From the NCBI RefSeq assembly GCF_024171895.1, contig NZ_JAMTCQ010000012.1:182283-246282 (forward strand): a stretch of DNA of 64,000 nucleotides. Reading direction: 5' to 3'. Made by a program: the position numbers and the translations under genes. Within the stretch, counting starts at the first letter, position 1. Every line of letters begins with the position of its first letter. The DNA comes from Prauserella halophila (GTDB lineage Bacteria; Actinomycetota; Actinomycetes; Mycobacteriales; Pseudonocardiaceae). Positions 52,336 to 63,406 of this stretch are shown piece by piece. Under the pieces are notes generated by a model. The model did not search any database, had not been told where the DNA came from, and saw only the letters and a list, made by a program, of their open reading frames with translations.

Positions 52336-52740
52336 TCACGGCAGGGCTGCGACCCCGGCTTCGGCGACCTCTGTGTCCTGTTCGACGCTGCCCGCGCTCA
52401 CGCCGATCGCGCCGATGACCTCGCCGTCGCGCTCCAACGGGATGCCACCGCCGAAGATCACCAGGCCGCCGTTGGTTACCTCGACGCCGTACAGCGGCGC
52501 GCCGGGCTTGGCCGCCTCGCCGAGCTGCGCGGTCGTCATCTTCAGCAATGCCGACGTGCGGGCCTTGCGGGTCGCGATGTCGATGCTCGCCAGGATCGCG
52601 CCGTCCTGCCTGGCGAACGTCACGAGGTGTGCCCCGGCGTCGACGACGGCGACGTTCATCGGCTGGCCGATCTCTTCGGCCTTGGCCAAAGCGGCCTCGA
52701 GCACGGGCTTGGCATCCGCGAGTGTCAGTGGTGCGACCAC
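52336..52740 (-). CDS. GlcG/HbpS-like (PduO C-terminal-like) heme-binding protein
   Basis: A 134-residue protein of the GlcG/HbpS fold: LTLADAKPVLEAALAKAEEIG, MNVAVVDAGAHLVTFARQDGA, SIDIATRKARTSALL, and VIFGGGIPLERDGEVIGAIGVSAG. Members bind heme or cobalamin-related ligands; the same domain occurs at the C-terminus of PduO and next to diol dehydratase genes. GTG 52740 is preceded by GGAGG at five bases and overlaps the reactivase small-subunit gene by 16 bases. Last gene of the dehydratase operon. It may sense or stabilise the cofactor. Confidence 0.88.
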   Translation of the reverse strand: MVAPLTLADAKPVLEAALAKAEEIGQPMNVAVVDAGAHLVTFARQDGAILASIDIATRKARTSALLKMTTAQLGEAAKPGAPLYGVEVTNGGLVIFGGGIPLERDGEVIGAIGVSAGSVEQDTEVAEAGVAALP

Positions 52741-53168
52741 GTTTCCTCCATTTCGTCGGGCGGTTCCTTCAACGGCAGCCCGACGACGAGGCGGGCCGCG
52801 TTGTGCCCGCACCATCGGGCGCGGGTGGAATCAGCAGTGACGACGGGCCGGTCGGCGGGGCGTTTCGCGTGATGCACGCATACCCGTCCCTCGGCATCGA
52901 CGCCGACACCCACGTCCAGCGGGGACGCGCGGGCCGCGGCGTGCGCCAGCTCGACGGCCGTGGTGTTCACCCCGGCAGCCGTACCCGACTCGCCGTCGCC
53001 ACGTGCTTCGAGGTCCCGGCCGTCCGCGCCGGCGAGCCGCACGGGCACGCCCTCCTCCTCGATCCCGGCCAGCAGCTCACGCACGCCGCGCTCACCGGCA
53101 CACCGGACGACGACGGTCGGCGGTGACCGGCGGTCGAGCTCGACGCGGCGGTCGACGATGCCGCTCAT
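52725..53168 (-). CDS. pduH: Diol/glycerol dehydratase reactivase, small subunit
   Basis: A 147-residue protein homologous to PduH/DdrB: VVVRCAGERGVRELLAGIEEEGVPV, then AARASPLDVGVGVDAEGRVCVHHAKRP and ARWCGHNAARLVVGLPLK. With the large subunit it releases damaged cobalamin from the dehydratase in an ATP-dependent way. The ATG overlaps the large-subunit stop (ATGA). Its fold resembles the dehydratase medium subunit, which it displaces. Confidence 0.9.
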   Translation of the reverse strand: MSGIVDRRVELDRRSPPTVVVRCAGERGVRELLAGIEEEGVPVRLAGADGRDLEARGDGESGTAAGVNTTAVELAHAAARASPLDVGVGVDAEGRVCVHHAKRPADRPVVTADSTRARWCGHNAARLVVGLPLKEPPDEMEETWSHH

Positions 53169-54991
53169 CGGGCGCGTCCCGTGTGATCGTCGACCAGGCC
53201 GGTCGCGACAGCGTTGCGCGGGCCCTCACACCCCCGCACGTTGCCCGTGCCGCACACGATTCCCGCGCCCGCCACGGCCTCGGCGATCATGTCGGGGATC
53301 TCGAAGTCCAGGGCCGAACCGCCGAGCACCACCACGAACCCGATCTCCCGCAGGTTCCCGCCGGGTGCCACCCGCTCCAGCGCACGAAGGGCGTTGACGA
53401 CGAACACCTTGTGCTTGGCCGACCTGCGCACCTGGCGGACCTGCTCCAGCGAGTACCGCGTCGGCACAGGCCGCATGCCCTCCTCACCGAGCACGACCAC
53501 GCGGGCGAACGCCTCCGCGGGCAGCGGCTCGTCGAAGAACCGCGCCGTCCCGTCCTCCATGCGCACGTGGAAGAAGCTCTCGGCTTTCGCGAGGGGGCTC
53601 TTCTTGATGTCCTCGGCGACCTCTCGGTTGTCGAGGCCGAGTTCGGAGTCGATCAGCTTCGTCACCAGATCGCCCGCGCCCGCCAGGTGGACCGAACGCA
53701 CCTCGCCGTGGCCCGTGGCCAGGGCGGCGTCGGTGGAGCCACCACCGAGGTCGAGCACCGCCAGCGGCCGCTCGGTGCCCGGTGTGGTCAGCGCACCCAG
53801 CACGGCCATGTCCGCCTCGACGCCGCCGACGTGGACATCCACGTCGAGAGCCGACCGCAGCTGGTCGGCGAGCGCCTCCATCGGGGCCCGGCTCGTGCGC
53901 ACCATCGCCGCCAGCGCCACCGCGTTCTCCAGCGCGAACTCGCCCGCGAGTGCGCCGGTGACGAGCTGCGGGACGAAGGTGTCGACCGCGAGCACGTCCT
54001 GGATGTGCACGTCCTGTTCCTCGGCCGTGTCCGACAGCGTGTCGGCCATGGCGTCGCGCACCGTCGCCAGCATCCCGCCCACGTGGGTGCCTGCCTCGCC
54101 GGTCGCGTCGGCCAGCGGGGCCACCCGGCGCAGCGTCGCCATGATCTCGTCGGCGCCCGCGTCGACACCCACCGACAGGCGTGCGTGCTCGCCGATGAGC
54201 GTCAGCGTGCCCGCCGGAATGCGGCGGTCCGCGATGTCGCCTGACGGTGTGCGCACCACGACGGCCGACCGGTTGCCCACCAGCGCCCTGGCCACGGGCG
54301 CGACGAGGCGGGTCTGGTCGGGGTCGAGGTCGAACAGCGTTGCGAGGCCGTACGAGTTGGACAGCGTGCGCACCGTCCTGCCCGGTTCGGCCACCTCCAC
54401 CGCTGCGGGCATGCCCAACGGCACCTTCCCGATCAGCGTGACCTCGTCGACCACGGGGATCGGCGCGGGCAGCCGGTTGACGATCAGATTCGCGTCGTCG
54501 GCCTGCACCACCGCGCCGGTGACCTCGACACCGCGATCGCGGGCCGCCGCGATCCCCACCGCGGCGTCCTCGAAGTCCACACCCGCACCCACCACGCAGA
54601 TCACGTGTTCCCCGGGCCCGCACGAGCCGAGCTCGGTGAACGCAACGGTCGTGCCCGTGCCGAGACCTGCCCCGGCCGGCGTGTCCGGGTTGTGCCCGAT
54701 CATCGTCGACTCGGTGATGACGGTTTCGGTGATCGTTTCCATCGCCAGTCCGCTGATCACCGGCGTCGCCTCGTTGACCAGCACCGCCGCCACTTCGTGC
54801 TGGGCACTCCCGGTTGCCGACAGCGCCTCCTGCACCACCTTGACGACACCCGGCACGTTCTCCGCCGTGCCCTTCACACCGGACGTCGGCGCGAGCGCCC
54901 CGCCCAGGTAACGCGGACCGTCCGGGCCGAGCTCGGCCAGACACGCCTCAGTGGTCGAGTTTCCGATGTCGACGCCGACGAGCAGAGTCAC
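53165..54991 (-). CDS. pduG: Diol/glycerol dehydratase reactivase, large subunit
   Basis: A 608-residue actin-like ATPase (PduG/DdrA): phosphate-1 loop LLVGVDIGNSTTEACL at the N-terminus, VINEATPVISGLAMETITETVITEST-like pattern (read as LVNEATPVISGLAMETITE), the phosphate-2 region LAVLDLGGGSTDAAL, and GFVVVLGGSALDFEIP near the C-terminus. It exchanges inactivated cyanocobalamin-like cofactor for fresh adenosylcobalamin. The start GTG 54991 begins exactly at the family N-terminus; the longer frame upstream overlaps the medium-subunit gene. Directly follows the dehydratase medium subunit on the same strand. Confidence 0.93.
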   Translation of the reverse strand: MTLLVGVDIGNSTTEACLAELGPDGPRYLGGALAPTSGVKGTAENVPGVVKVVQEALSATGSAQHEVAAVLVNEATPVISGLAMETITETVITESTMIGHNPDTPAGAGLGTGTTVAFTELGSCGPGEHVICVVGAGVDFEDAAVGIAAARDRGVEVTGAVVQADDANLIVNRLPAPIPVVDEVTLIGKVPLGMPAAVEVAEPGRTVRTLSNSYGLATLFDLDPDQTRLVAPVARALVGNRSAVVVRTPSGDIADRRIPAGTLTLIGEHARLSVGVDAGADEIMATLRRVAPLADATGEAGTHVGGMLATVRDAMADTLSDTAEEQDVHIQDVLAVDTFVPQLVTGALAGEFALENAVALAAMVRTSRAPMEALADQLRSALDVDVHVGGVEADMAVLGALTTPGTERPLAVLDLGGGSTDAALATGHGEVRSVHLAGAGDLVTKLIDSELGLDNREVAEDIKKSPLAKAESFFHVRMEDGTARFFDEPLPAEAFARVVVLGEEGMRPVPTRYSLEQVRQVRRSAKHKVFVVNALRALERVAPGGNLREIGFVVVLGGSALDFEIPDMIAEAVAGAGIVCGTGNVRGCEGPRNAVATGLVDDHTGRAR

Positions 54992-54995
54992 GGCG

Positions 54996-55586
54996 TCAAC
55001 CGGCGTCGGCCAGCCGGATCCGGACGTCGAGCTCGACCGGCGGGGCATCGGGTGTCACGAACTCGGTTTCCTTGATGTGCAGCAGCGCCGCCTTGGCTTG
55101 CCAGCGCGGCCGGGCCATGTAGTCGTTGCGCGCGGGGACCGGTTCGGGCGACTCGGCCTTGGCGTAGCGCGCCGCGTTGCGGCCGACCTTACGGAACGTC
55201 TCCGGATCGAGCAGTGGTGCCTGTGGGAAAAGCTCCAGATTGGACAGGCGGACGAGGTCCTTCTGATGGATCATCGTCGTGCCGCGGGACAACACGCCGA
55301 CGCCGATACCCGAGCCCGACAGCCGCGCCGCCGAGTGGGCGATCACGGCGAGGTCCGACCCGCTGCGATACCGGATCACCCGGGCCTGCACGCCCTGCTC
55401 TTCGACCCCGGCGAGGAGTTCGCGCAGCACCTCGGAGTGCGGGATCCCGACGATCGTCTTGGTGAAGAAGTCTCCGAACGCGGGCGAAATGCCGATGACC
55501 ACCTCGTCCGGACGGGATCCCACCGTGGCTTCGCCCCTCTCGACCGCGTCGAGCACCCGCTCGGGCCGCGCTTCCATGCTCGTCAT
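54996..55586 (-). CDS. pduD: B12-dependent diol/glycerol dehydratase, medium subunit
   Basis: A 196-residue beta subunit: [45 protein letters not shown], and [22 protein letters not shown] are the family landmarks. It contributes the base-off cobalamin binding surface. The ATG at 55586 follows the large-subunit stop by 15 bases. In enterobacteria the order is large-medium-small; here medium is last of the three. Confidence 0.93.
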
Positions 55587-55601
55587 GGCAGGACCGTCCT
55601 T

Positions 55602-57308
55602 TCAGCCGTTTTCCTCTTCGGGATTGCTGGCGCTGACGACATGGCGAAGGCGTTTCATCTCGCGCCAGCGTTCGCCTGCAGGGCGGTACCCGCTGCCGGG
55701 GCCCGCGTAGTCGTTGGCGTCGTTGACCGCGGACAGGGTCTCCAGTTCGGAGGTGAGAATCGCCGAGGTGTGCAGCAGGTCGCCGGACACCCGGTGCCGC
55801 AGTACCGACAGCAGTGTGTGCGCCATGTCGCTGTACCCGGACGCCTCAAGTGCCTTGATCACGTCGAGTCCGGTGATCCCGCGGTCCATCACCGACTGTG
55901 CGGCTTTGAGGTCCTCGAGCACGTCCCGCATCGGCAGATCCTGGCTGCCGTGCGCGTAGGTGGCCGCCTCGACCTCCTTGTCGGAGATGGTCGGTAGTCC
56001 GAGCTGGGCGAACACCGCCTGCAGTGCGCGCGCCGCCTTGCTGCGTGCGGCCAGCAGTTCCTCCTCCGGAACGTGCCGCAGTGCGCCGTCGACCTGCAGG
56101 TCGCGCTGGATGGTGTTCCAGTCGTCGTAGTCCGTGGAGTCCAGATTGGAGCCGGCGAACATGTTGTCGTAGTTGGGCACGGACGAGTATCCGGAGCACA
56201 CAAAGTCCGTGCCCGACAGCAGCTGCGGCAGCAGGCGCGCGGTGCGGCGCATGTCCGAGTGCGAGAACGACTGGTCGTTGCCGGAAGCGCATTCGAGGTC
56301 GGCCGTGCTGGCGAGCAGGTTCTCGGCGAGTACCGCGCGGATACCCGCGGGCACGGCGCCCGGCACGCCGATGCAACTGATCGACCCGTTCTGCAGCCCT
56401 TGCACGCCCGCGCCCTTCGCGACGAGGATGCAGCGGATTTCCAGGTACAGCATCGAGCGGCCCTCGGCGTTGCCCATCTGCACCTCGGAACCGGTGCCGG
56501 AGGTGAATCGCATCTTGATGCCGCGCGAGGCGTAGGCCGAGGCCAGGAACGCCTTCGACCACGGTGTGTCGTCGCCGTCGCAGAACACCGGCTCGGTGCC
56601 GTAGACGGAGATCGTTTCCGCGTAGGCGGTGATGCCGCGCATGCCGAGTTCCAGCTCGGTGGCCTCTTCGAGAGCGCACTGGGTGAGTGCGCCCGGGGTG
56701 CCGGCCAGTGCACCGACCTGCAGTGCAATCGCCACGAGCGGCGCGTACCGCACCACACCCAGGGTCGTTTCCAGCTCCCGGAACCCGCGCAGCGACGCCT
56801 CGGCCGCCTCGGCCGCGACCTGCACCGGATTGTCGCGCGCGCTGGTGGAATGTGCCTGGTTGGCCGGCGTGCGCCGGGCGCGCATCTTCTGCAGCGCCTG
56901 CATCATCTCGACGACGTTCATCGTCTTGACGACCTCGAGCAGTGCGGCGGGGGTCAGACCGCCCGCGACCTCGACGACCTCCGATCGTGTCACCGTCGGG
57001 TCGACGAGCATGCGTGCCACCTCGACCGGTTCGAGTGACATGGCGCGTTCGGTCACCGACACGTCGATCGCGTGGTCGGAGATGAACTGGTCGAGGAAGT
57101 CGAATTCGGCACGCGGCTTGCCGTCCATCTCCACGATGACGCCGTCGGCCACCCGCACGCTCGGTGCAGGGTCGTAGGGGCTGTCCATCGCCACCATGCC
57201 GACCTCGGGCCATTCCTCGACGAACCCGTCGAGGTTGACCGGCCGCTCTTCGAGCGCCTCGGTGCGGCTGGATTTCGGCGTCGATACCGGAAGCGGTTCC
57301 GCGGTCAT
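55602..57308 (-). CDS. pduC: B12-dependent diol/glycerol dehydratase, large subunit
   Basis: A 568-residue TIM-barrel subunit, slightly longer than the usual 554-555. Landmarks are ERPVNLDGFVEEWPEVGMVAMDSP, MNVVEMMQALQKMRARRTP, ATELELGMRGITAYAETISVYG, TSGTGSEVQMG, and ASGNDQSFSHSDMRRTARLLPQ, which contain substrate and metal contacts. It converts 1,2-propanediol, glycerol or ethylene glycol to propionaldehyde, 3-hydroxypropionaldehyde or acetaldehyde by a radical mechanism with adenosylcobalamin. The start ATG 57308 follows GGGAGATCC; the longer frame reads into the small-subunit gene. Whether glycerol or diol is preferred cannot be judged by eye. Confidence 0.95.
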   Translation of the reverse strand: MTAEPLPVSTPKSSRTEALEERPVNLDGFVEEWPEVGMVAMDSPYDPAPSVRVADGVIVEMDGKPRAEFDFLDQFISDHAIDVSVTERAMSLEPVEVARMLVDPTVTRSEVVEVAGGLTPAALLEVVKTMNVVEMMQALQKMRARRTPANQAHSTSARDNPVQVAAEAAEASLRGFRELETTLGVVRYAPLVAIALQVGALAGTPGALTQCALEEATELELGMRGITAYAETISVYGTEPVFCDGDDTPWSKAFLASAYASRGIKMRFTSGTGSEVQMGNAEGRSMLYLEIRCILVAKGAGVQGLQNGSISCIGVPGAVPAGIRAVLAENLLASTADLECASGNDQSFSHSDMRRTARLLPQLLSGTDFVCSGYSSVPNYDNMFAGSNLDSTDYDDWNTIQRDLQVDGALRHVPEEELLAARSKAARALQAVFAQLGLPTISDKEVEAATYAHGSQDLPMRDVLEDLKAAQSVMDRGITGLDVIKALEASGYSDMAHTLLSVLRHRVSGDLLHTSAILTSELETLSAVNDANDYAGPGSGYRPAGERWREMKRLRHVVSASNPEEENG

Positions 57309-57516
57309 CTTTCGGATCTCCCTGTGTCGTGGGCACAGGCTGGGCTGTGCGGCGGTGAAGGCTGTGTCGCGGGTGGATGCCGGGCATGGGCGACAGCCGG
57401 GTGGTGCCGGTAGGTGTCGTGCCGGAAAATCCGGCCTCGGCTGCAGGAGGCGGGTCGCTGGCACGGCGGTGGCGTCGCCCTCGCGGGCTCGCCGCGGGAG
57501 GTGGTGGGCGGTGGTG

Positions 57517-57954
57517 TCAGGCGAGGATGTCGCGGCGCTCGTAGACGTCGGCCGCTTCGCGCACCAGCTCGGCGCACAGGGTCGCGGTGTACTCGTTCTC
57601 GAGCTGGTCGGCAATGTCCGTGAGCTGCTGTTTCGTCGAGGCATTCGGCCGTAGCGAGTTGTAGATCGACAGCACGAGATCGTCCGGGAGCGCGGTCAAC
57701 TCGGCGGCACGGCGGAAGTTGCGGGCCAACTGGGTGCGGCCCACCCGTTCGGCGACCTGTGCCTGCAATCGCAGCGTGTCGGGCGAGATGCGCAGGTCCT
57801 CGGGGGCGATGTCGCCGGAGAGGACGGCCTGCATCGTCAGTTCGTCGATCGGTTTGCCCGTCGGAGTGCGGAGCAGCTCCGGACGGTGCGACGCGAGCGG
57901 ATAGTCGCGTCCCGGGTCGAGTTCCGCCTGCTGGTCGGGAAGTGTCACCGCCAT
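57517..57954 (-). CDS. pduE: B12-dependent diol/glycerol dehydratase, small subunit (first gene of the operon)
   Basis: A 145-residue gamma subunit: DYPLASHRPELLRTPTGKPIDELT (start), VLSGDIAPEDLRISPDTLRLQA, QLARNFRRAAELTALPDD and LRPNASTKQQLTDIADQLEN. The start ATG 57954 lies behind AAGGCAGGTG. It is the first gene of the operon, about 50 bases after the two direct heptamers and -10 box that form the predicted promoter. A 208-base gap separates it from the large-subunit gene. Confidence 0.93.
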   Translation of the reverse strand: MAVTLPDQQAELDPGRDYPLASHRPELLRTPTGKPIDELTMQAVLSGDIAPEDLRISPDTLRLQAQVAERVGRTQLARNFRRAAELTALPDDLVLSIYNSLRPNASTKQQLTDIADQLENEYTATLCAELVREAADVYERRDILA

Positions 57955-57994
57955 CACCTGCCTTCTTCGTTGAAGCCGGTACCGGATGTCGAAC

Positions 57995-58025
57995 CTAGGA
58001 GTGGGGGCGTTGCACCGACGTTGCA
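57995..58025 (-). promoter_or_regulatory. Dehydratase operon promoter with direct heptamer repeats
   Basis: On the minus strand TGCAACG (58025-58019) and TGCAACG (58014-58008) are 11 bp apart, then after 10 bases TAGGTT serves as -10 box (57997-57992). The same arrangement occurs before the aldehyde dehydrogenase gene. The geometry fits a SARP/OmpR-type activator. Confidence 0.7.
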
Positions 58026-58040
58026 GGCGACGCCCGTCTG

Positions 58041-59564
58041 TCAGTCGTCGTCGTTGTCGAGCAGCCAAGCGAGTCGGGCATCCGCGACCGGGCGACGCGG
58101 ATCGCCGGCGGGCAGGACCCGCGTGAGGTGTTCGAACACCTCGACGTCGTCGTGGCCCGGTTCGCCCTCGGACAACGCCCACAGCGCCTCGGGGTCGCCG
58201 CTGTCGAGGACGGCCGTGCGCAGCGCCACGGTCCGCTGGTCGCGCTCCGCCCGGATCGTCGGCGATTCGGACCGGGCCAGCAGTGGTGCGGTCGCGATGG
58301 TGGCGGCCCTCCCGACATCGCCGGTCGCGAGGGCGTCGCGCACGCGCAGGAAGTCGGCGTCGGCCTCGGCGGCGAGCCGGTACGGTTTGGCGAGCAGAGC
58401 TTCGCCGAGTTCGCTGCGCAGGCGGTGCACTTCTGCTCGCACCGTCGTGGGGTTTCCTGCGTCACCGTAGAGGTGCAGTGCGAGTTGGTCCGCGGTCAAT
58501 CCCTCGGGATGCAGTGCCAGGAGGGCGAGGATCTCCGCCCTGCGCAACGTCAACGGCACGCTGCGCCCGTCCAACTGAGCCTCCGGGGTCGTGCCGAGGA
58601 ACGACAGTCGTAGCGTCGGCGCCGCCGGGCGCACGGGGATCGTCGTCCCACCTTCCCTCGGCAGCCGCAGCAGGTACCCGCCGGAGAGCGGTTCGAGCAG
58701 CGCCTCACGGCCTTCGACGTCGATCCGGTCGGTGCCGTCCTCGACCGAGACCCGGTGGGGGAATGTGCCGAGCGGGTTCGCGGCGATCACCCGCCCCGAC
58801 GTCGTGAGCAGCGCGCCGGGTTCGCCGCCGAGCCGTTCGAGATGGGACAGGTTCCGCCTGCGCAGACGTTCGTCGGAGTGCTCCATGCGCTGCCTCAGGT
58901 GGTTCTCGGCGACCTGCGCGGTGGCGTTGACCAGCGAGACCATCGCCGGATGCAGCGTGTCGAGCCTGCCGCTGATGTCGATGGCGCCCAGCACCCGGCC
59001 GGTGTCGGGATCATGGATCGGCGCCGCCGCGCAGGTCCACGAGTGGTAGGTGCGTACGAGGTGCTCGGCCGAGTAGATCTGCACCGGTGCGTCCGTGGCG
59101 AGTGCGGTGCCCATGGCGTTGGTCCCGATCGCCGTCTCGGCCCACTGCATGCCTTCATGCAGGCCGACCGGGTCGGCCAGCCGGCACAGCTCCGACGGGC
59201 CTTCCCGCCACAGGATCGTGCCGTCCGCGTCGGTGACGATCGTGATGTGCTGTGCCTCGTCGGCGATGCTCACCAGCAGTTCCCGCAACGGCGGTAGCAC
59301 GGCGTGCAGCTGATGCGAGGTGCGCACCTCGTCGAGCTGGTCGTCGTCGTACACGACCGGCGGCAGGTAGCCGTCCGGATCGACGCCGGTGGCCAGCGAC
59401 CGGCGCCAGGACTCGGAGATGAGCGTGCGCGGTGCCGCTCGACCGTCCGCGCCGCCTGCCTCCTCGTCACTGAGCGCGGCATCGCGGATCCGCTGGAGCA
59501 CACGCTGCTGAGCCAGCGGGTCCGACACGCTGTGCAGGGCGTTCGGGGCGGGTTGGGATCTCAT
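58041..59564 (-). CDS. AcoR-like GAF regulator with SARP/OmpR-type winged-helix output
   Basis: A 507-residue regulator. The N-terminal part carries the AcoR-type signature SWRRSLATGVDPDGY and a GAF domain (ETAIGTNAMGTALATDAPV, WTCAAAPIHDPDTGRVLGAIDISG, about 60-225). No AAA+ domain follows. Instead residues about 318-400 form a winged helix of the OmpR/SARP type (LTLRRAEILALLALHPEGLT, VRAEVHRLRSELGEALLAK). A helical C-terminal tail ends in DNDDD. ATG 59564 is preceded by GGAG at six bases. It lies between the dehydratase operon and the aldehyde dehydrogenase, whose promoters share direct repeats suited to such a domain, so it most likely activates both in response to a diol or aldehyde. Confidence 0.87.
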   Translation of the reverse strand: MRSQPAPNALHSVSDPLAQQRVLQRIRDAALSDEEAGGADGRAAPRTLISESWRRSLATGVDPDGYLPPVVYDDDQLDEVRTSHQLHAVLPPLRELLVSIADEAQHITIVTDADGTILWREGPSELCRLADPVGLHEGMQWAETAIGTNAMGTALATDAPVQIYSAEHLVRTYHSWTCAAAPIHDPDTGRVLGAIDISGRLDTLHPAMVSLVNATAQVAENHLRQRMEHSDERLRRRNLSHLERLGGEPGALLTTSGRVIAANPLGTFPHRVSVEDGTDRIDVEGREALLEPLSGGYLLRLPREGGTTIPVRPAAPTLRLSFLGTTPEAQLDGRSVPLTLRRAEILALLALHPEGLTADQLALHLYGDAGNPTTVRAEVHRLRSELGEALLAKPYRLAAEADADFLRVRDALATGDVGRAATIATAPLLARSESPTIRAERDQRTVALRTAVLDSGDPEALWALSEGEPGHDDVEVFEHLTRVLPAGDPRRPVADARLAWLLDNDDD

Positions 59565-59644
59565 GGACACTCCGCGGCGATGACGGTGACGGGCGGTGCT
59601 GTCGCTTGAGCATGCCCCGCTCACGTTGCCGAGGGCAAGCAACT

Positions 59645-59667
59645 GGCACGAGGGGGCCCTTCGTGCC
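59645..59667. promoter_or_regulatory. Long dyad in the regulator-aldehyde dehydrogenase divergent region
   Basis: GGCACGA-N9-TCGTGCC (59645-59667), extended by one more pair (T59644/A59668), is a 25-bp perfect-arm dyad between the divergent genes. Its centre is about 45 bases upstream of the TGCAACG repeats. A second protein, or the SARP-like regulator in a different mode, may bind it. Confidence 0.55.
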
Positions 59668-59691
59668 ACCGGCCGCCTGGTAGGGCGGCTC

Positions 59692-59725
59692 TGCAACGCG
59701 TCTGCAACGTCGCACTCCCTACGTT
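59692..59725 (+). promoter_or_regulatory. Aldehyde dehydrogenase promoter with direct heptamer repeats
   Basis: TGCAACG (59692-59698) and TGCAACG (59703-59709), 11 bp apart, are followed after 10 bases by TACGTT (59720-59725) as -10 box. Repeat, spacing and the CACTCC context equal those in front of the dehydratase operon. Confidence 0.72.
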
Positions 59726-59767: not shown

Positions 59768-61291
59768 ATGACCACTTACGCCGCACCGGGGCAGCCAGGC
59801 AGCGTCGTCGCGTTCGAATCGCGGTACGACCACTTCATCGGCGGGGAGTACGTGCCGCCCGCCAAGGGCCAGTACTTCGAGAACCCGACGCCGGTCACCG
59901 GCAAGGTGTTCACCGAGATCGCGCGCGGCACCTCCGAGGACATCGACCGCGCCGTGACCGCGGCGACAAGGGCCGCCGACGCGTGGGGCCGCAGTGCCCC
60001 CGCCGAGCGCGCCGCACTGCTCAACAAGATCGCCGACCGGATGGAGGCCAATCTCGAGGCCATCGCCGTGGCCGAGAGCTGGGAGAACGGCAAGCCCGTC
60101 CGCGAGACGCTGGCCGCCGACATCCCACTGGCCATCGATCATTTCCGGTACTTCGCCGGTGCGATCCGCGCACAGGAGGGTTCGCTCTCGCAGATCGACG
60201 CCGACACCGTGGCGTACCATTTCCACGAGCCGCTCGGCGTGGTCGGCCAGATCATCCCGTGGAACTTCCCGATCCTCATGGCGACGTGGAAGCTCGCACC
60301 TGCGCTGGCCGCGGGCAACTGCGTGGTGCTCAAGCCGGCCGAGCAGACTCCGGCTTCGATCCACGTGCTGCTCTCGCTGATCGCCGACCTGCTGCCCGCG
60401 GGCGTGTTGAACATCGTCAACGGCTTCGGCGTCGAAGCGGGCAAACCGCTCGCCCAGCATTCGGGCATCCGCAAGGTCGCTTTCACGGGTGAGACCACCA
60501 CCGGCAGGCTGATCATGCAGTATGCCAGCGAGAACATCATCCCGGTGACGCTCGAGCTCGGCGGGAAGAGCCCGAACATCTTCTTCGACGACGTCGCCGC
60601 GGCCGACGACGCCTTCTACAACAAGGCGCAGGAGGGCTTCGCGATGTTCGCCCTGAACCAGGGCGAGGTGTGCACGTGTCCGTCGCGGGCGCTGGTGCAG
60701 TCTTCGATGTACGACCGGTTCGTCACCGACGGCGTCGCCCGAGTCGAGAAGATCACGCAGGGCAACCCGCTCGACACCGACACGATGGTCGGTGCGCAGG
60801 CCTCCAACGACCAGTTCGAGAAGATCCTGTCCTACATCGACATCGGTAAACAGGAGGGCGCGAAGGTCCTCACCGGTGGCGAGAAGACGGACCTGGGCGG
60901 TGAGCTGTCCGGCGGGTACTACATCCAGCCGACGGTGTTCGCGGGCGACAACAAGATGCGTGTGTTCCAGGAGGAGATCTTCGGCCCGGTCGTATCGGTG
61001 GCGAAGTTCGACGACTACGACGACGCCATGAAGGTCGCCAACGACACGCTGTACGGCCTCGGTGCGGGCGTGTGGTCGCGGGACGGCAACACGGCGTTCC
61101 GCGCGGGTCGTGACATCCAGGCCGGCCGCGTGTGGACGAACTGCTACCACGCTTACCCCGCGCACGCGGCGTTCGGCGGCTACAAGCAGTCGGGTATCGG
61201 CCGCGAGAACCACCGGATGATGCTCGACCACTACCAGCAGACGAAGAACCTGCTCGTGTCGTACTCGCCCGATGCGCAGGGCCTGTTCTGA
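59768..61291 (+). CDS. NAD-dependent aldehyde dehydrogenase (acetaldehyde/propionaldehyde type)
   Basis: A 507-residue ALDH: PWNFP at 164-168, Lys189 in [10 protein letters not shown], the catalytic base Glu263 in [10 protein letters not shown] and the nucleophile Cys302 in [20 protein letters not shown] and the C-terminal [15 protein letters not shown] are typical of ExaC/AcoD-type enzymes that oxidise acetaldehyde and other short aldehydes to acids. It would remove the aldehyde made by the diol dehydratase. Divergent from the GAF/winged-helix regulator; DUF779 follows five bases after its stop. Confidence 0.94.
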
Positions 61292-61296
61292 AGCCG

Positions 61297-61665
61297 ATGA
61301 GCCGAGTGGATCTCACCGACGCTGCGGCTGACCTGCTGCGACGGCTGTCCGGAGAACACGGGCCTCTGATGTTCCATCAGTCCGGCGGTTGTTGCGACGG
61401 CAGCGCCCCCATGTGCTACCCGGCCGGTGAGTTCCGCACCGGCGCAGCGGACGTGCACCTCGGTGACCTCGACGTCGCCGGCGTGCACGATCCCGTTCCG
61501 GTGTGGATGTCGCGGGCGCAGTTCGAGTACTGGCAGCACACGCACCTGACCATCGATGTGGTCCAGGGGCGGGGCAGCGGATTCTCGCTCGAGGCCCCGG
61601 AGGGAGTGCGGTTCCTGATCCGTTCTCGGCTGCTCACCGACGAGGAACTCACCGGGCTCGGCTGA
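61297..61665 (+). CDS. DUF779 family protein
   Basis: A 122-residue protein with the DUF779 core HGPLMFHQSGGCCDGSAPMC, then VWMSRAQFEYWQHTHLTIDVV and FSLEAPEGVRFLIRSRLL. The conserved Cys/His residues suggest metal binding. The gene nearly always sits behind an acetaldehyde-type ALDH gene, as here, and may assist its maturation; the reaction is not established. Confidence 0.93.
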   Translation: MSRVDLTDAAADLLRRLSGEHGPLMFHQSGGCCDGSAPMCYPAGEFRTGAADVHLGDLDVAGVHDPVPVWMSRAQFEYWQHTHLTIDVVQGRGSGFSLEAPEGVRFLIRSRLLTDEELTGLG

Positions 61666-61951: not shown

Positions 61952-63406
61952 TCACGGTGTGCGGTCGGGGACCGTGATGCGGTACTGCCGGAGCTTGCGA
62001 TAGATCGTCGCCCTGCCGAGCCCCAACTGCTCGGCCGCCTCGCTGACGGTGGTGCCCGGTTCGGTCAGGCAGCGGACGATCTCGTCCCGTTCCACCGACT
62101 GCAACCTGGTCAGCGGATGGCCCGGGCCGGTGAACACCTCGGGTGCGAGGTGGTGGAGGTCGATCCGGTCGGTCCTGGCGGCCGCCTCGCGGACGACCCG
62201 GCGGAGGCTGCGGACGTTGCCCGGCCAGTCGAACGTCGTCAGCGTACGCGCGGCCGCCGGGGTGAAGTCGATCTCGCGACCCCGGGCCTGGTGGGCGAAA
62301 TGCCTGGCCAGCGGCATGATGTCGTCCGGCCGGAACCGTAGGGCCGGCACTTCGACGATGACGTCGATCAGCTCGCGAAGCTCCGCCGGCAGCGTGTCGG
62401 CCGACGCGGCCGTGACCACGTAGGGCTGCATGTCGTCGGTGGCTCTCACCCGGGCGAAAAGGTGCGCGAGTTCCGTCGTCGCCCACGCGGGCATGCTGTC
62501 CACCCCGGAGACGATCACGCAGGTGCTGTCCTTGCCGAGTTCGGGAACCCACAGCTCGAACCACGACTGGACGTCCTCGGGGGCGGGCGGCCGCGCGCTG
62601 AGCACACGCTCCCGGCGCAGCTCGCGGCGGGCCAGCGAAGACAGGGCGGTCTTGCCCGTGCCCAGCTCGCCGACCACGGCGACGGCCAGTCCGCGCCGGA
62701 AGGCCGTGCGTGCCTCGGCGAACGCGCCGCGCCACCCGGTGGTCGGCAGCCCCTCTTCGGGTGCACGGGAGCGGTCGGCGTACACGCGGAACACCTCGCC
62801 GTGAGAAGTGGGCGGAGCGGCCTTCCCGGCACCTCTGGCCAGCATCAACGCCGATGTGTTGGCTGCCGCCGACTGGGCCAGCGCCATCAGCAGTTCCGAG
62901 GCCGAATCGGACCAGGTCGTGAGGTTGACGCTGCCGGCGATGTCACCCGACGGATCGACGACGGGTGCGGCCGCGCACGTGTAGCCGCGCAGGCCGCTGC
63001 AGTAGTGCTCGTCGGCACGCACCAGCGACGGTGCGCGGTCGGCCAGCGCGAGGCCGAGGCCGTTCGTGCCGGCGTTGCGTTCGGCGAAGTAGAACCCCGG
63101 GGCAAGGTGCACGCGGTCCAGGGAGCGGTTGATCGTGGCGTCCTCCGACAGTCTGCTCAGCACGAGCCCGTCCGGGTCGGTGATCATGATGCTGACCGGT
63201 TCGTTCGCCAGCGCCTTCTGCAGGCCGCGCAGTACCTCGCGACCGCATTCGTACAGCAGCGATTCGGTGTCGACCGAGCCCGTGAACACGGGCCGGATCT
63301 CGTCGGCGGCAAGGCCGTAACGCTCGCTGCGGCGCCAGGATGCGCGGAGTCGTGGTGCGCCGCCCTGCATCGGGTCCGTGGGGAGTGCGAAGTCGTCGCG
63401 GTGCAT
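61952..63406 (-). CDS. AcoR/MimR-like regulator with GAF, degenerate AAA+ and Fis-type HTH
   Basis: A 484-residue bacterial enhancer-binding-protein relative. The N-terminal ASWRRSERYGL and GAF domain (ERNAGTNGLGLALADRAPSLV, YTCAAAPVVDPSGDIAGSVNLT) are AcoR-like. Walker A is GELGTGKT (246-253). The sigma-54 contact motif GAFTGA is missing, the region around it is shortened, and the Walker B reads VIVSGVD without the usual DE. The C-terminus has DWPGNVRSLRRVVREA and a Fis helix-turn-helix (SEAAEQLGLGRATIYRKLRQY). Actinobacteria lack sigma-54, so it presumably works with sigma-70-type polymerase. A perfect dyad lies in front of it. It is divergent from the amidohydrolase gene. Confidence 0.88.
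   Translation of the reverse strand: MHRDDFALPTDPMQGGAPRLRASWRRSERYGLAADEIRPVFTGSVDTESLLYECGREVLRGLQKALANEPVSIMITDPDGLVLSRLSEDATINRSLDRVHLAPGFYFAERNAGTNGLGLALADRAPSLVRADEHYCSGLRGYTCAAAPVVDPSGDIAGSVNLTTWSDSASELLMALAQSAAANTSALMLARGAGKAAPPTSHGEVFRVYADRSRAPEEGLPTTGWRGAFAEARTAFRRGLAVAVVGELGTGKTALSSLARRELRRERVLSARPPAPEDVQSWFELWVPELGKDSTCVIVSGVDSMPAWATTELAHLFARVRATDDMQPYVVTAASADTLPAELRELIDVIVEVPALRFRPDDIMPLARHFAHQARGREIDFTPAAARTLTTFDWPGNVRSLRRVVREAAARTDRIDLHHLAPEVFTGPGHPLTRLQSVERDEIVRCLTEPGTTVSEAAEQLGLGRATIYRKLRQYRITVPDRTP

Follow-up and report, generated by a model that had tools for sequence, protein, structure and literature searches.

A GAF-linked, SARP-like regulator very probably switches on an aldehyde dehydrogenase and, in some actinobacterial species, a B12-dependent diol dehydratase through paired TGCAACG repeats

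The DNA analysed here, referred to below as the window, is a stretch of 64,000 nucleotides from Prauserella halophila in which a regulator gene lies between a diol dehydratase operon (57954-52336, beyond the 3' end of the regulator gene) and a divergently oriented unit consisting of an aldehyde dehydrogenase gene and a DUF779 gene. The genes concerned are the following:

52336..52767, minus strand: HbpS/PduO-C-like protein at the end of the operon (Pfam PF03928)
52725..53168, minus strand: reactivase small subunit-like protein (Pfam PF02288)
53165..55048, minus strand: diol dehydratase reactivase large subunit (TIGR04491), the true start of which is probably further downstream
54996..55586, minus strand: diol dehydratase medium subunit (domain/family match)
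55602..57308, minus strand: diol dehydratase large subunit (domain/family match)
57517..57954, minus strand: diol dehydratase small subunit, which opens the second putative target operon (ATG start read at 57954)
58041..59564, minus strand: the regulator, a DhaR/AcoR-type GAF sensor with a SARP-like output (Pfam, predicted structure)
59768..61291, plus strand: ExaC-type acetaldehyde dehydrogenase, the first putative target (NCBIfam NF050026, 959.5 bits, cut-off 900)
61297..61665, plus strand: DUF779 protein downstream of the aldehyde dehydrogenase, probably co-transcribed with it
61952-63406, minus strand: a further regulator of AcoR-like type, next to DUF779, that combines a GAF domain with a degenerate AAA+ region and a Fis-type helix

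At 54996-57954 (minus strand) the gene for the small subunit of diol dehydratase comes first, followed by those for the large and the medium subunit; pdu operons usually begin with the large subunit, followed by the medium and the small one.

Each of the two units is preceded by the same composite element, a direct heptamer repeat with a -10 box 10 nucleotides past its second heptamer:

58008..58025, minus strand: direct repeat TGCAACG-TCGG-TGCAACG before the diol dehydratase operon (direct reading, exact copy)
57992..57997, minus strand: -10 box TAGGTT (direct reading, spacing kept in relatives)
59692..59709, plus strand: direct repeat TGCAACG-CGTC-TGCAACG before the aldehyde dehydrogenase gene (direct reading, exact copy)
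59720..59725, plus strand: -10 box TACGTT (direct reading)

The sequence-only reading from which this analysis started had found, at both promoters, TGCAACG-N4-TGCAACG 10 nucleotides 5' of a TAnGTT box, which direct reading of the letters bears out. It had also proposed a genome-wide scan for the repeat, which, when carried out on the source genome (5.05 Mb in 16 contigs, 99.95% complete), returned two exact copies, both of them at this locus, against 0.027 expected per genome from the base composition of the window. Within the window itself the two promoter copies are the only exact ones, and when up to three mismatches are allowed there are 10 matches against 8.1 expected, a count reached by 32 of 100 shuffles; because this is no better than chance, the weak matches carry no meaning. 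The further suggestion that the spacers of the two promoters are alike around CACTCC did not hold up, since the likeness is lost even in Prauserella isguenensis (TCGCGGTTCC and CCCCTGCGCA), and it was discarded as a signal, most spacer columns holding little information across the 80 named loci described below. The flanks are equally uninformative in the logo of those loci, which has no visible -35 consensus. What is conserved is TGCAACGT-N3-TGCAACGT-N9-TAnnTT, and each repeat is therefore nearer to an octamer than to a heptamer.

The regulator is composed of a Pfam GAF domain (residues 104-222), a small beta domain, a SARP-like winged helix at about 317-403 and a C-terminal helical domain (404-505). 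Its fold was predicted from an alignment of the window protein with relatives from 42 of the 80 named loci, and the resulting AlphaFold2 model of the whole protein (43 sequences) has a pLDDT of 83.5 and a pTM of 0.54. Foldseek matches this model to the N-terminal part of E. coli DhaR (4lrz, E 9e-14) and to AfsR (E 4e-7). The C-terminal 196 residues, modelled alone with a pLDDT of 94.1, match AfsR with E 2e-7 over 220 columns at an rmsd of 5.1 and a TMq of 0.63 (0.58-0.63 over three AfsR chains); apart from these three chains no match falls below E 0.001, the next best being GlnR at E 0.03. At the level of sequence profiles, Pfam GAF is found in 40 of 43 relatives, and the NCBIfam DhaR model matches residues 97-224 with a score far under its cut-off. 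Trans_reg_C reaches 21.4 bits in the window protein, where its cut-off is 26.2, and is found in 29 of the 43 relatives at E 0.01; Pfam BTAD (PF03704) has no match in the window protein or in any of the 43 at that same E value. Searches of the window protein gave no match to an AAA+ sigma-54 interaction domain or a Fis-type helix-turn-helix at E 0.1, and no receiver domain in Pfam. The predicted structure supports the proposal that an AcoR-like GAF sensor is here joined to a winged helix, where AcoR has AAA+ and Fis domains.

The model contains the elements that define the SARP fold, an OmpR-type winged helix followed by activation helices, and the promoters have the direct repeats near a -10 box that characterize SARP targets, with the 11-bp member of the two known periods (11 or 22 bp) and at a fixed distance. 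SARPs are further defined by an N-terminal SARP domain, and in the present protein the SARP-like part is C-terminal, behind the GAF domain. Judged by predicted fold and by promoter geometry the protein would be SARP-like in its working; having neither the N-terminal position nor a BTAD match, it is not classed among the SARPs.

Relatives of the regulator were found with an alignment as query, a single-protein query having given none, and 80 of the 379 relatives were kept as named loci. They come from Prauserella, Amycolatopsis, Saccharopolyspora, Pseudonocardia, Kribbella, Parafrankia and Klenkia, among other genera, and from Streptosporangiales (Planotetraspora and Microtetraspora, for example); of the named relatives, those in P. 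isguenensis and P. aidingensis are closest to the regulator, at 90-91% identity. In the 400 bp that lie 5' of the regulator gene, the best match to the repeat scores 14/14 at 54 loci, 13/14 at 24 and 8/14 at the remaining two (L214 and L234), each of which has a site elsewhere in the locus: 4.5 kb off and before the aldehyde dehydrogenase at L214, and a weaker one before the diol dehydratase small subunit gene (ddS) at L234. In 1600 shuffles the score never rose above 12/14. A control on the opposite strand reached 13/14 at 4 of the 80 loci, probably because TGCAACG following CGT belongs to the palindrome CGTTGCAACG, and is for that reason not independent. The -10 box is placed with the same regularity: between offsets 18 and 59, TAnnnT occurs only at +28 (70 of the 80 loci) and +27 (one locus), the background being 87 occurrences in 31600 positions of the same stretches with the sites included. 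The comparison of this region among related genomes, which had been put forward as a check, accordingly has the repeats kept across genera and the spacer and flanks not.

The pairing of regulator and site was also followed in the opposite direction, from exact copies of the repeat in 150 genomes of the family. There are 73 such copies of TGCAACG-N4-TGCAACG, in 54 of these genomes, and for 64 of the copies one of 95 regulator matches in 85 genomes is no more than 3 kb away. (These matches comprise the top of the match list and a few fragments, the weaker, paralog-type rows having been left out; genomes of the family with a regulator match of any kind number 121.) Orientation is uniform among the 64: the 50 copies on the 5' side of the regulator are all on the opposite strand and point away from it, and the 14 on its 3' side are all on the same strand. 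Of the nine copies further than 3 kb away, one (L069, G002:C12) is beside a regulator fragment and an aldehyde dehydrogenase gene, two (L073 and L074) precede a complete diol dehydratase operon at 192 and 223 kb from the regulator, and one (L075) has its -10 box 368 nucleotides before the start of a gene for an ErcA-like alcohol dehydrogenase (NCBIfam 466 bits, under the cut-off of 550). The remaining five are without related neighbours and without a -10 box. Among the 67 distinct contexts of exact copies (L001-L126), TAnnnT is found at exactly +28 in 58 and nAnnnT in four, and the five with neither are those same five copies. The association of regulator and site therefore persists through several gene arrangements, divergent and downstream ones as well as the diol dehydratase operons at 192 and 223 kb. 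Promoters that retain the regulator gene and lack the repeats, which the sequence-only reading had named as the observation that would count against it, are not the pattern found: in 49 of the 85 genomes an exact copy is no more than 3 kb from the regulator, and 35 of the remaining 36 carry, 5' of the regulator gene, a copy that deviates at one or two positions. The one family genome with a regulator for which this mismatch search of the 5' side found no site is that of L100. A reversed-pattern control in the 150 genomes gave hits that overlap true sites ending in T and was not used.

Over the phylum, a profile of 20 relatives was searched against 396 genomes and found matches in 38, while the pattern of repeat plus -10 box has 16 sites in 13 genomes. 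Thirteen of the 16 sites are within 1.3 kb of a profile match and one is at 3.2 kb (by eye); the two unassociated with a match are a second site in G437 and the site in G290. The reversed pattern with a -10 box has no hits in the 396 genomes. A site with the exact pattern is present in 12 of the 38 genomes with a profile match and absent from 26, some of which appear to contain only paralog-type or diverged relatives, whose sites differ. Among 12 shorter, distant relatives (L145-L156), 10 have a site when up to three mismatches are allowed and two (L151, L155) have none at an 11-bp period; at L150, L152, L153, L154 and L156 the site separates the regulator from an aldehyde dehydrogenase gene that runs in the same direction.

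The relatives whose sites differ include a sister clade, recovered with support 1.0 in an analysis of 53 loci plus the window (23 of them selected from the 80 named loci), which consists of the paralog in the same genome (L004) together with L129-L143 and in which the C terminus is cut short; L144 falls outside it. In these 17 loci, L144 included, TGCAAC-N4-TGCAAC with a 10-bp period is present at 10 and the 11-bp period at none. At the 80 orthologous loci the TGCAAC repeats have an 11-bp period at 70, 10 bp at two and 9 bp at one, and in the 12 distant relatives, by exact match, 11 bp in six and 10 bp in none. It may be hypothesized from this that the C-terminal domain sets the operator spacing. 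A -10 box at the same spacing was not seen at the paralog sites, and several of these sites are near the regulator's own start, so that autoregulation is as likely there. Genes adjoining the paralogs include a flavin monooxygenase-like gene at L004 (by eye) and aldehyde dehydrogenase genes at L131 and L137. A strongly conserved hairpin of the type GGGGGTGGTGCC...GGCACCACCCCC was seen by eye past the repeats at L130, L132, L133, L135 and L141-L143, and is probably the terminator of a convergent gene.

The genes that follow the site differ between lineages. Matches to aldehyde dehydrogenase occur at 69 of the 80 named loci, and those to DUF779 at 64. The ddS gene occurs at 26, and every one of the 26 has an upstream site, scoring 14/14 at 15 loci, 13 at seven, 12 at one and 11 at three, with TAnnnT at +28 for 24; the score of 11/14 is also reached by 31 of 1600 shuffles, and all three sites with this score have TAnnnT at +28. 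In three cases (L162 7488, L168 9148 and L170 8809) the -10 box is just 3-4 bp before the aligned ddS start, and these transcripts may be leaderless. The commonest target on the evidence of these sequences is thus the ExaC-type aldehyde dehydrogenase and not the diol dehydratase, which appears to be a member of the regulon in some lineages only. The compact regulon proposed earlier stands in so far as the regulator is linked to both promoters; the element itself extends well beyond one operon, and the diol dehydratase branch is confined to those lineages.

An aldehyde dehydrogenase match is lacking at 11 of the 80 loci, and the survey of first genes covers all of these but L207 and L230. At L165 and L179 the first gene past the site is acyl-CoA-ligase-like, with propionate-CoA ligase as best match (746 and 737 bits, under its cut-off of 955), and L165 exceeds the cut-off of an acetate-CoA ligase subfamily model (692 against 657). 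At L234 the first gene is diol dehydratase. In Pseudonocardia and similar genomes it is a gene for a NarL-type response regulator (scanned at L187 and L104; the same layout by eye at L188, L203, L211, L212, L228, L110 and L115), which suggests a regulatory cascade; the resemblance of this response regulator to MadR is under the curated cut-off, and no function is assigned to it. The steps catalysed by the targets, from alcohol or diol to aldehyde, acid and acyl-CoA, fit one catabolic theme, with an aldehyde or alcohol as the presumed signal.

The interpretation favoured here, with a probability of roughly 0.85, is that the 58041-59564 protein acts as a one-component activator which switches on both units through the paired repeats; over the range of species compared, it would very probably switch on the aldehyde dehydrogenase and, in some of them, the B12-dependent diol dehydratase. 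The GAF part would sense a small metabolite from the breakdown of an alcohol, diol or aldehyde, and the SARP-like C-terminal half would bind as a head-to-tail pair to two TGCAACGT repeats which, being 11 bp apart, lie on one face of the DNA. The resulting 22-bp box is at the place of the -35 element and at a fixed distance from the -10 box, and the bound pair would stand in for the missing -35 and recruit sigma-70-type RNA polymerase, as AfsR does. The aldehyde dehydrogenase-DUF779 unit on one side and the diol dehydratase-reactivase operon on the other would both be switched on, and diol dehydration would thereby be coupled to the oxidation of its toxic aldehyde product. The lack of a -35 consensus is as expected of an activator-dependent promoter, and both this lack and the rigid spacing are explained if the 22-bp box is placed as an afs box is.

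The position of the site argues for activation, although a box that overlaps the core promoter could also be the binding site of a repressor which sits between -35 and -10 and blocks the polymerase in the absence of an aldehyde or diol, and binding and conservation would look alike in the two cases. A blocker, however, has no need of a distance to the -10 box that is exactly the same at 70 of 80 loci, the promoter by itself should be weak given that its logo displays no -35 consensus, and the output fold matches that of AfsR, which is an activator; repression is accordingly judged unlikely. Considerably less probable is the binding of the repeats by the second GAF regulator (61952-63406) or by another factor. 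The second regulator adjoins DUF779, and its GAF domain is likewise of the AcoR type, but its C-terminal part is present at only 4 of the 80 named loci, all in Prauserella, and at none of the 60 loci L067-L126, and across genera the site instead tracks the GAF-SARP gene. Fis-type helices, moreover, usually read inverted repeats and not direct ones. As a general binder of the repeats this protein was rejected, having been met at Prauserella loci only among those examined. That the promoters resemble each other through functionless chance or recent duplication, as the chance-level rate of weak matches in the window might suggest, has almost no probability left, being already contradicted by the two exact copies against 0.027 expected per genome and by the conservation across genera of the repeats and not of the spacer and flanks.

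Activation through the paired repeats, if correct, would join a SARP-type output to a metabolite sensor and put it in the service of catabolism; SARPs are known for the control of antibiotic production. A regulator, an operator and a regulon would be supplied for the ExaC-type aldehyde dehydrogenase-DUF779 pair, which stands beside the regulator gene at most of the loci examined, and genes named only "GAF domain-containing protein" or "helix-turn-helix domain-containing protein", as among plasmid relatives, would gain a testable function. Among the open-access papers listed, titles and opening parts of abstracts contained no description of the GAF-SARP regulator or of its site, which is weak evidence of absence. 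The regulon is well supported by sequence comparison and would represent a new form of SARP-type activation, not a new kind of system. A broader generalization, with about an even chance of being right, is that the GAF-SARPs are undescribed but widespread actinobacterial one-component sensors of alcohols and aldehydes which all read TGCAAC, in which a full C terminus goes with an 11-bp period at a strictly fixed distance from the -10 box and the shortened C terminus of the sister group with a 10-bp period, the C-terminal domain setting the spacing of the operator, and in which a core of ExaC-type aldehyde dehydrogenase has been extended by diol dehydratase, acyl-CoA ligase, alcohol dehydrogenase or a response-regulator cascade. 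The two periods in sister subfamilies offer a way to test what determines operator spacing in tandem winged-helix activators, and a possible use of the system is as a biosensor for aldehydes or diols.

Several known systems share parts of this arrangement. The N-terminal part resembles that of DhaR and AcoR, the GAF-containing sigma-54 activators of dihydroxyacetone and acetoin genes (DhaR(N), E 9e-14); unlike these, the window protein has no AAA+ domain and no Fis-type helix and carries a SARP-like output instead. The PhoB/OmpR regulators and GlnR have the same winged-helix fold, GlnR being among the nearest solved structures, and the pho box likewise pairs two heptamers at an 11-bp distance, with the -10 box about 10 bp further on; the present protein differs in having no receiver domain and in its extra C-terminal helices, which match AfsR only (E <0.001). 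DfdR of Rhodococcus likewise combines a GAF-like sensor with a DNA-binding output in an actinobacterium, a likeness by description only, and is assigned to the LuxR family in the portion of PMC6099782 used here.

The closest parallel is with AfsR and the other SARPs of Streptomyces (AfsR structures 8k60 and 8hvr), with which the C-terminal winged helix and helices align over 220 columns and which share the direct repeats at 11 bp before the -10 box. SARPs differ from the present protein in their Pfam BTAD match, in the sequence of the repeat and in their targets, which are antibiotic genes instead of genes for aldehyde and diol catabolism. In AfsR, as far as the excerpts consulted describe it, NOD and TPR domains are present, and the extra domains of large SARPs are C-terminal according to the same sections of PMC10936776, whereas here the SARP-like part is itself C-terminal, behind a GAF sensor. 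The targets of SARPs are given there as direct repeats 11 or 22 bp apart with the 3' repeat 8 bp from the -10 box; the corresponding distance here, 10 bp from the heptamer or 9 from the octamer, is 1-2 bp longer. The passages of PMC10936776 drawn on here also describe a SARP dimer that engages the afs box together with sigma region 4, the box having its centre at -29.5 and its upstream repeat between -40 and -30. If the -10 box is assumed to begin at -12, the 22-bp box of the present promoters spans -40 to -19, which is the same placing as that of the afs box.
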